The position numbers and the translations under genes are program-made. 64,000 nucleotides of DNA from an alpha proteobacterium U9-1i (GTDB lineage Bacteria; Pseudomonadota; Alphaproteobacteria; Caulobacterales; Aquidulcibacteraceae): contig BBSY01000003.1 of NCBI GenBank assembly GCA_000974665.1, positions 1,205,001-1,269,000 of the forward strand, read 5' to 3'. The notes below the pieces were generated by a model. The model was not told where the DNA came from, did not search any database, and saw only the letters and a list, made by a program, of their open reading frames with translations. How positions within the stretch are numbered: the stretch's first letter is position 1; each line of letters begins with the position of its first letter. Positions 51,878-53,356 of this stretch are shown here, in pieces.

Positions 51878-53356
51878 CTAGCGATCGATGAACAGGCTCG
51901 CCGGGTGCTCGACCATGCCCTTCACGCGCTGGATGAAGGCGGCCGCGTCGTAGCCATCAACCACGCGGTGATCGAACGACGAGCTTAGGTTCATCATCTT
52001 GCGGACGACGATCTGGCCATTCTTCACCATCGGCCGCTCGACCAGCTTGTTGACGCCGATGATCGCGACTTCCGGGTGATTGATCACCGGCGTGGTGACG
52101 ATGCCGCCCAACGCACCGAGCGAGGTGATGGTGATAGTGGAGCCCGAGAGCTCGTCCTTGCCGGCCGTGTTCGAACGCACTGCCGCGGCGAGGCGCGACA
52201 CTTCGGCGGCGCAGCCCCAAATGTCGCGCGCCTCGACGTGACGCACCACCGGCACGATGAGGCCATTGTCGGTCTGCGTAGCAATGCCGATGTCGACGCC
52301 TTCGTGGCGATAGACGACGCCGTTATCATCGTCGAAGCGGGCGTTGATCTGTGGGAAATCCGGCAGGCACATCACCAGCGCCCGCATCAAGAACGGCAAC
52401 ACCGTCAGCTTCGGCTGGTCGGCGCGGCGCGTGGCGTTCAAATGCGCGCGGAGATCTTCAAGCTCGGTGAGATCGCACTCTTCGACGTAAGCAAAGTGCG
52501 GGATGCGGCGCTTGGCGTCCTGCATCTTCTCGGCGATCTTACGCCGCAAACCGATCACCTTCACCGGCTCGATGCCGTTGCGCTCCGCCAGCGCGGTGGA
52601 ACTCATGCGCGAACCGCTGACGGGCACCAGCACGGTGTCCAAATCTTCGTGCGTGATGCGCCCATCGGCGCCGCTGCCGCGGATGGTCGAAAGGTCGATG
52701 CCCAGCTTCTGCGCGCGCGCGCGCACGGCGGGCGAGGCTTGAGCCTGGCCCATTTCGCGCACGGTGGGCTCGGTGTTTTCGCGCTTGGCGACTGCTTGTT
52801 GCTGCTTCGGCTCAGCTGCCTTTGGTGTTGAACCGCTGGGCATCGCGCCAGTCGGCACGGAGACAGGCTTTGAAGCCGCGCCTTGGATCGCGGCCTGCAC
52901 ACTCGCTTCCGACATCACGGATCCGGCCTGCGCCCTGATGCGCGGCTTTTCTGCTCCCCCGTTCACGGGGGAGCTGTCAGCGCGCGAAGCGGGCTGACTG
53001 AGGGGGCGGTGCGCCACAGTTTCCGCCGCTTGCGGGGCCGTGCCCCCTCCGTCGCGAGCTGCGCTCGCGCCACCTCCCCCGTTCACGGGGGAGGAAGCCG
53101 ACGCGCCTTCTTCAGCGTCGACTTCAAACACAGCGATAGCCGAACCCACCGGCGCCATCTCGCCAGGCTCGCCGGTGAGCGACACGATCTTGCCGCTGAC
53201 GGGCGAGGTCATCTCCACAGTCGCCTTATCCGTCATCACATCGACGAGCGGCGCATCTTCTTTGACGATGTCGCCGACGCGCACGTGCCACGCCACGATC
53301 TCGGCCTCGGCCGTGCCTTCGCCTACGTCCGGCAGCTTAAAGACATACTGGCCCAT
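51878..53356 (-). CDS. bkdB: Branched-chain 2-oxoacid dehydrogenase E2 (lipoamide acyltransferase)
   Basis: A 492-residue E2. The lipoyl domain has lipoyl-Lys44 in VMTDKATVE. A long linker (about 80-205) precedes the E3/E1-binding domain (about 208-240, with SPAVRARAQKLGIDLSTIRG), and the acyltransferase domain carries catalytic His463 in DHRVVDG. It accepts acyl groups from the E1 alpha-beta enzyme in Val/Leu/Ile breakdown. The linker is unusual: it repeats SSPVNGG and contains two palindromic DNA elements translated in frame (see repeat entry). E3 (lpd) is not in the window. Confidence 0.95.
   Translation of the reverse strand: MGQYVFKLPDVGEGTAEAEIVAWHVRVGDIVKEDAPLVDVMTDKATVEMTSPVSGKIVSLTGEPGEMAPVGSAIAVFEVDAEEGASASSPVNGGGGASAARDGGGTAPQAAETVAHRPLSQPASRADSSPVNGGAEKPRIRAQAGSVMSEASVQAAIQGAASKPVSVPTGAMPSGSTPKAAEPKQQQAVAKRENTEPTVREMGQAQASPAVRARAQKLGIDLSTIRGSGADGRITHEDLDTVLVPVSGSRMSSTALAERNGIEPVKVIGLRRKIAEKMQDAKRRIPHFAYVEECDLTELEDLRAHLNATRRADQPKLTVLPFLMRALVMCLPDFPQINARFDDDNGVVYRHEGVDIGIATQTDNGLIVPVVRHVEARDIWGCAAEVSRLAAAVRSNTAGKDELSGSTITITSLGALGGIVTTPVINHPEVAIIGVNKLVERPMVKNGQIVVRKMMNLSSSFDHRVVDGYDAAAFIQRVKGMVEHPASLFIDR
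52953..53094. repeat. Two palindromic repeat elements inside the E2 linker coding sequence
   Basis: GCTCCCCCGT-TC-ACGGGGGAGC (52953-52974) and CCTCCCCCGT-TC-ACGGGGGAGG (53073-53094) are perfect 10-base palindromes about 120 bp apart. Each is flanked by a second dyad (GTCAGC/GCTGAC beside the first, GCGAGC-TGC-GCTCGC beside the second). The whole looks like two copies of the dispersed intergenic palindromes (C-rich stem plus GGGGGAGG) found in many alphaproteobacteria, here translated in frame in the minus-strand gene as SSPVNGG repeats. Confidence 0.75.

Follow-up and report, generated by a model that had tools for sequence, protein, structure and literature searches.

A palindromic repeat dimer read in frame in an alphaproteobacterial E2 gene, and the association of its family with DUF559 genes

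How two palindromes come to be translated inside an enzyme, and what could have moved them there, are the questions raised by the E2 (bkdB) gene in a 64,000-nucleotide stretch of the genome of the alphaproteobacterium U9-1i (contig BBSY01000003.1, positions 1,205,001 to 1,269,000; hereafter the window). A first-pass annotation had described two palindromes, each beside a second dyad, translated in the linker between the lipoyl and E3-binding domains. Both palindromes and both dyads are present (Table 1), and the 20-mer CTCCCCCGTTCACGGGGGAG, found at 52954-52973 and 53074-53093, has no match in 100 dinucleotide shuffles. The peptide SSPVNGG is encoded twice, once per palindrome, within one open frame, and the insert has the lipoyl domain (aa 6-76) on one side and the E3-binding domain (aa 206-239) on the other, in a protein whose E2 identity is given by Pfam; this confirms the in-frame reading and the linker position. 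On the minus strand, 52940-53110 folds far more strongly than shuffles do (z -5.7), and an Rfam scan of 52850-53200 returned merely two chance-level hits. While the palindromes are real, the repeating unit is larger than the 22-nt palindrome first described: it is a two-module sequence of about 55 nt (hairpin, variable second stem and GAGGGGG tail), mostly occurring as an inverted pair, and the E2 insert is a single inverted dimer of such units (52950-53097). The E2 insert is almost certainly a palindromic dimer of mobile type, translated in frame. Such in-frame palindromic repeats are of an already known kind; the new part is a link to an enzyme, DUF559, for which no publication was found in the open-licence literature, and we lean towards the explanation that the repeat pairs are non-autonomous passengers of the DUF559 nuclease, a relation like that of REPINs to RAYT.

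Copies elsewhere in the genome, which the first-pass annotation had expected of a mobile repeat, were found at several levels of stringency. The exact 20-mer occurs six times (none in a backward-read control, with up to two mismatches allowed), a strict pattern of the larger unit (hairpin edge, stem and tail) has 38 copies (again none in the backward control), and a covariance model built from 28 of these 38 units detects at least 74 units at E <= 0.001, a lower bound that comes from scoring 150 of 4076 first-look candidates. The units are of two flavours, CT type and G type, and among the 74 listed all 22 pairs of neighbours less than 150 bp apart stand in + then - order. The arms of the second stem pair at 0.87 over 27 distinct stems, compared to a mean of 0.75 and a maximum of 0.82 in 1000 re-dealings of the right arms; this is no proof of selection, as template switching could also maintain the pairing. 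The family consists of inverted dimers resembling repetitive extragenic palindromic (REP) sequences, arranged as hairpin-stem2-tail, short spacer, tail-stem2-hairpin, and spread genome-wide. Eight of the ten contig ends of the assembly (contigs C1-C5 of G000) fall at a repeat unit, as repeats are expected to break assemblies.

We then examined relatives, using a draw of 30 genomes from the genus. Among 28 E2 rows, one locus (L038) stops short of the linker, leaving 27 readable rows, U9-1i included. The insert motif is present in 8 of these and absent from 19; six of the eight, U9-1i included, hold both full units, while L027 has one unit and a bare palindrome and L031 a bare palindrome. On a tree of the E2 core the insert label requires eight changes, at least five of which are forced by well-supported branches, and it clusters no more than in shuffles, with or without L038. 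The absence of the insert from relatives, which had been set as a test of mobility, is therefore seen in 19 rows, but these are not clean empty sites: the linker, which is Ala/Pro/Gly-rich and variable among relatives, turns over, and it was rejected as an empty site because in the sister pair L021/L024 it is replaced rather than missing (a further pair, L027/L037, gave a poor alignment and was set aside). A more distant E2 linker (L066) contains another translated repeat-like stretch (LSPTGGEGKGEG ... PHPDPLSLGRG), and the part of the E2 query that holds the insert (aa 80-147) is matched at 49% by a 598-aa frame of a relative (G018:C334:1152-1355), perhaps another coding insertion.

Clean empty sites come from thiC, where 30 loci were fetched and the junction is visible in 22, U9-1i included. 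Nine of these are bare, with REN to FGA spanning 20-22 aa, three hold a dimer of this family as judged by hairpin and peptide (L298 of U9-1i, L299 and L300), four have other long palindromes (arms 15-29) at the same spot and six have other stretches. Unrelated palindromic repeats have a hot spot here; L303 and L317 have a different long GC-rich palindrome there (arms 26 and 29), in frame, and L304/L305 yet another. The scattered presence of the E2 insert among relatives, together with the bare thiC loci, shows that the repeats were inserted and are not ordinary linker sequence.

The extent of insertion into protein genes was assessed at 53 repeat sites, where the sequence on either side was scored for codon usage, with 44 open reading frames of the window as the training set; eight sites at contig ends have one readable side and were hence left unclassed. 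The same frame is open on both sides at 11 sites, and ten are counted as coding, namely priA, leuS, thiC, mnmA, mnmC, mutL, pdhB, bkdB, a Lhr-like (ligase-associated DEXH) helicase gene and, less surely, an imuB-like gene. The eleventh, L189, was dropped on its weak codon scores and for want of a gene name. On the right-hand side, mnmA (-0.06), imuB (0.17) and mnmC (0.19) have weak codon scores. Seven of the genes (priA, leuS, thiC, mnmA, mutL, pdhB and the helicase) pass the cut-off of a full NCBIfam model, mnmC passes its two domain models alone, and the imuB name stems from weak matches to DNA polymerase IV (best E 2e-7). Compared to solved homologues, the repeat interrupts the alignment of ThiC, whose aligned blocks are 41 aa apart where the homologue has 6, and of LeuRS (48 aa against 13); the alignments of MnmA and PriA fit an insertion less sharply, and in MutL and MnmC the repeat is located between aligned domains. 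In-frame insertion was thus found in ten unrelated protein genes, with homologues clearly lacking the insertion for thiC and leuS and less sharply elsewhere. By eye, 13 of the 18 coding palindromes are read in the SP-type frame and five in the PPP-type frame, and none in the third (LPR-type). The pdhB gene (pyruvate dehydrogenase E1 beta, L142:475-2136) is a second lipoyl-linker gene with its own in-frame dimer.

DUF559-like frames were noticed when the genes beside the units were read, and the repeats that flank DUF559 genes are of this family or of sister families. The genome of U9-1i has ten DUF559 matches, five of which have a listed unit no more than 250 bp away (binomial tail 4e-8), and when filters are switched off, units stand on both sides of six (L202 weakly on one side). 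As a measure independent of the covariance model, we scored the best inverted match between the left and right 300-bp flanks, with a cut-off of at least 34. This is reached by DUF559 genes at 7/10 loci in U9-1i, 20/27 in the genus (29 taken, two at contig edges dropped) and 18/28 in the class (29 taken, one dropped), and at 7/13 further loci of the same class, compared to 0/25 for canonical Vsr genes (30 taken, five dropped), 0/26 for E2 genes (29 taken, three dropped) and 0/600 for shuffles. When flanks are paired across loci, 2% of Vsr pairings and 17% of E2 pairings reach the cut-off, the E2 value probably coming from shared neighbours. A survey of units of at least 20 bits within 300 bp of 39 DUF559 loci (U9-1i and genus) found units on both sides in 25, and in 16 of these the nearest two face inward (+gene-). 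In L213, a unit beside the DUF559 gene has the second stem GTCATCCCGGACTTGATCCGGGATGAC, which resembles CGTC-type repeats.

The protein itself is a predicted EDxHD/Vsr-like nuclease, as judged from its conserved residues and profile matches. Common to 26 DUF559 domains are R32 R33 Q34, D43, E54-x-D56-G57, H60, D69 and R72, and the acidic and His residues of a nuclease core (D43, E54, D56, H60 and D69) are invariant in 26 of 26 rows. Against the PDB, the DUF559 profile matches 3hrl (9e-35), 3r3p ('Mobile intron protein', 2e-4) and PvuRts1I (0.005), with a weak match to Vsr 1cw0 (E 0.15) and chance-level values for the other matches listed. We take 3r3p to be I-Bth0305I. Among published work, PMC9403480 places a DUF559 gene among EDxHD homing endonucleases, and PMC12907096 describes a Caulobacter DUF559 member, VsrA, that drives an SOS response in the absence of its partner methylase.

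The gap between fadA and fadJ (names given from a reading of the proteins, with no family search behind them) brings the repeats and the gene together at one site. Thirty loci were fetched and two paralogue matches left out, giving 28 genus loci, of which L338, L349 and L335 were read by eye. The gap is bare in eight (47-97 bp), contains a repeat pair in three (L338, L340 and L346), a DUF559 element in four (L328 of U9-1i, L343, L349 and L351) and a broken DUF559 gene between units in one (L335); it is longer and of other kinds in five (L329, L331, L333, L342 and L350) and unreadable in seven. The pairs found there are partly of the CT type, whereas the flanks of the U9-1i DUF559 gene at this site are of the G type, so the pairs need not stem from the DUF559 element.

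Taken together, the behaviour of the dimer is that of a non-autonomous mobile element, tolerated in coding DNA if its length and frame keep the protein open and the site is a linker or loop. Its autonomous partner would be the DUF559 nuclease, which often lies between two inverted units. We propose that the nuclease may recognise the hairpin units and cut either the unit or the target, and that repair would then copy the dimer into new sites. The chances that DUF559 moves such dimers are in our judgement about even. A wider proposal, which we put forward tentatively and with some doubt, is that DUF559 nucleases could be the dedicated mobilisers that have been missing for a large class of palindromic repeats in proteobacteria. 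Such a mobile system would join hairpins to an EDxHD/Vsr-like nuclease, where others use an HUH transposase, and its miniature copies would repeatedly add peptides to conserved proteins.

Several observations weigh against the role of DUF559 as mobiliser. How cutting would lead on to copying is a proposal, movement was not observed and the precise ends of the element are not established; in the alignment of bare and filled thiC loci the junctions differ by several bases, with no clear target-site duplication seen. One -/+ pair of neighbours, below the threshold of the 74 units, lies beside a DUF559 gene (L200). Three DUF559 genes of U9-1i (L205, L207 and L209) lack a unit, although L207 has another inverted palindrome, and L208 has one weak match. 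In the 39-locus survey, nine loci lack a unit, which slightly lowers our confidence, five have one on one side only, and nine two-sided loci are not inward-facing (four -gene+, three -gene- and two +gene+). Flanks mismatched across DUF559 loci also reach the cut-off in 5-10% of cases, 7 of 14 DUF559 loci outside the class reach it, and the loci compared are best-scoring matches rather than a random sample. The similarity of DUF559 proteins correlates modestly with that of their flank repeats (Spearman 0.29, p 0.009, for class loci; 0.23, p 0.10, for the U9-1i paralogues), and when profiles of DUF559 and the N-terminal Vsr family were compared, the outcome was unsupportive (probability 1.9). 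Finally, a dimer is present in a genome in which DUF559 was not found (G022), which implies that dimers persist without it.

This last observation would also fit DUF559 being a parasite of the palindromes, that is, a free-standing homing endonuclease that targets the repeat dimer while something else moves the dimers. The intron-encoded mobile endonuclease among the solved DUF559 relatives, the EDxHD homing family assignment in PMC9403480 and the 16 genes between inward-facing units agree with this. However, the sole other enzyme tested, Y1_Tnp, shows no link to the repeats, and DUF559 families tend, with a modest correlation, towards their own repeat types, which a pure parasite need not do; we consider this explanation rather unlikely. 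It is improbable that DUF559 genes and repeats merely share tolerant insertion hot spots without a functional link. The fadA-fadJ gap and the thiC loop do accept several different inserts, but the canonical Vsr genes, also small and taken in an equally large draw across the class, never reach the flank cut-off, and inward-facing units recur directly on both sides of the gene in 16 DUF559 loci. The dimers could also be REPINs moved by RAYT (a Y1 tyrosine transposase), since inverted dimers are REPIN-like and the genome has a single Y1_Tnp match. This is very improbable, and RAYT was set aside as the mobiliser, because the Y1_Tnp gene has no units at its sides (about 1.9 kb separate it from the nearest, inside mnmA); its 400-bp flanks hold no inverted repeat (score 21), and GTAG is absent from the conserved columns of 28 units. 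An ordinary low-complexity linker, palindromic by chance, would suit the composition and variability of the E2 linker but is refuted by the genome-wide units, of which nine further genes contain copies, by the exact 20-mers at other sites and by the covarying second stems.

Table 1. Coordinates in the window of the E2 gene and of the repeat dimer within it
Feature	Position	Strand	Basis or description
E2 gene	51878..53356	-	492 aa; lipoyl, E3-binding, acyltransferase domains; in-frame insert ~aa 86-135
Repeat unit 1, CT type (TCTG-palindrome-CTGTC-stem2-GACTGAGGGGG)	52950..53006	+	covariance model R1, 66.1 bits
Unit 1 outer hairpin GCTCCCCCGT-TC-ACGGGGGAGC	52953..52974	.	sequence, shuffle test
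Unit 1 second, variable stem (GTCAGC...GCTGAC)	52976..52998	+	sequence and folding
Unit 1 tail TGAGGGGG	52999..53006	+	
Spacer separating the two inward-facing tails	53007..53042	.	
Repeat unit 2, G type, inverted relative to unit 1	53043..53097	-	covariance model R1, 59.8 bits
Unit 2 second, variable stem (ends approximate)	53051..53070	-	sequence and folding
Unit 2 outer hairpin CCTCCCCCGT-TC-ACGGGGGAGG	53073..53094	.	

With DUF559 as the preferred candidate partner, the system can be set beside four known ones. The likeness to the EDxHD homing endonuclease I-Bth0305I lies in the 3r3p profile match and in the placement of a DUF559 gene in the EDxHD family by PMC9403480; by contrast, the DUF559 gene is flanked by hairpin repeats, and no intron or intein was noticed there, with no search aimed at them made. 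The REPIN/RAYT system with its GTAG REPs, as described in PMC3733652, shares the inverted dimers of short hairpins, the many copies and the small nuclease gene flanked by units. It differs from the present family, which has no GTAG in its conserved columns and in which the flanked gene encodes DUF559, a PD-(D/E)XK/EDxHD-type nuclease, and not an HUH tyrosine transposase. As regards MITEs, which are marked by terminal inverted repeats in common with an autonomous element and by target-site duplications, the observations are units on both sides of the gene in 25 of 39 DUF559 loci, with DUF559 as a putative autonomous partner, and thiC junctions at which no clear duplication is seen.

The CGTC REPs are likewise alphaproteobacterial and dimeric, with intragenic copies. 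Their tag is a terminal CGTC (or TGTC, CCTC); here, CCGTC stands beside the second stem in 9 of 17 strict G-type units, CT-type units being without it. The stem described in PMC3733652 is 8-9 bp with an A-T start, whereas here the outer hairpin is 10 bp and GC-rich and stem2 varies. Our repeats are cousins of the CGTC repeats at most, their membership being unproven. This 2013 survey states that the CGTC repeats 'apparently lack a dedicated transposase'. The association with DUF559 offers a named, testable enzyme for alphaproteobacterial palindromic repeats, whose mover the survey left open, and, if the association is functional, DUF559 proteins, including the Caulobacter VsrA, would gain a natural role.

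In behaviour the repeats resemble the Rickettsia palindromic elements, which according to PMC10969869 and PMC3733652 are palindromes of similar size, present in many copies and read in frame in unrelated genes. Here, by contrast, the hairpins are of the CTCCCCC kind, the two-module unit occurs mostly as an inverted dimer, the named relatives of the host are Hyphomonadaceae metagenome-assembled genomes, and a candidate enzyme lies between sister copies. The likeness drawn here is one of how the repeats work, and in this sense the suggestion of the first-pass annotation that repeats can colonise coding sequence as those of Rickettsia do was upheld by the ten in-frame sites among 53. In summary, palindromic repeats insert peptides not just in Rickettsia, from which this is best known, but also in an unrelated alphaproteobacterial genome, where many genes are affected, among them leuS, thiC, priA and mutL.
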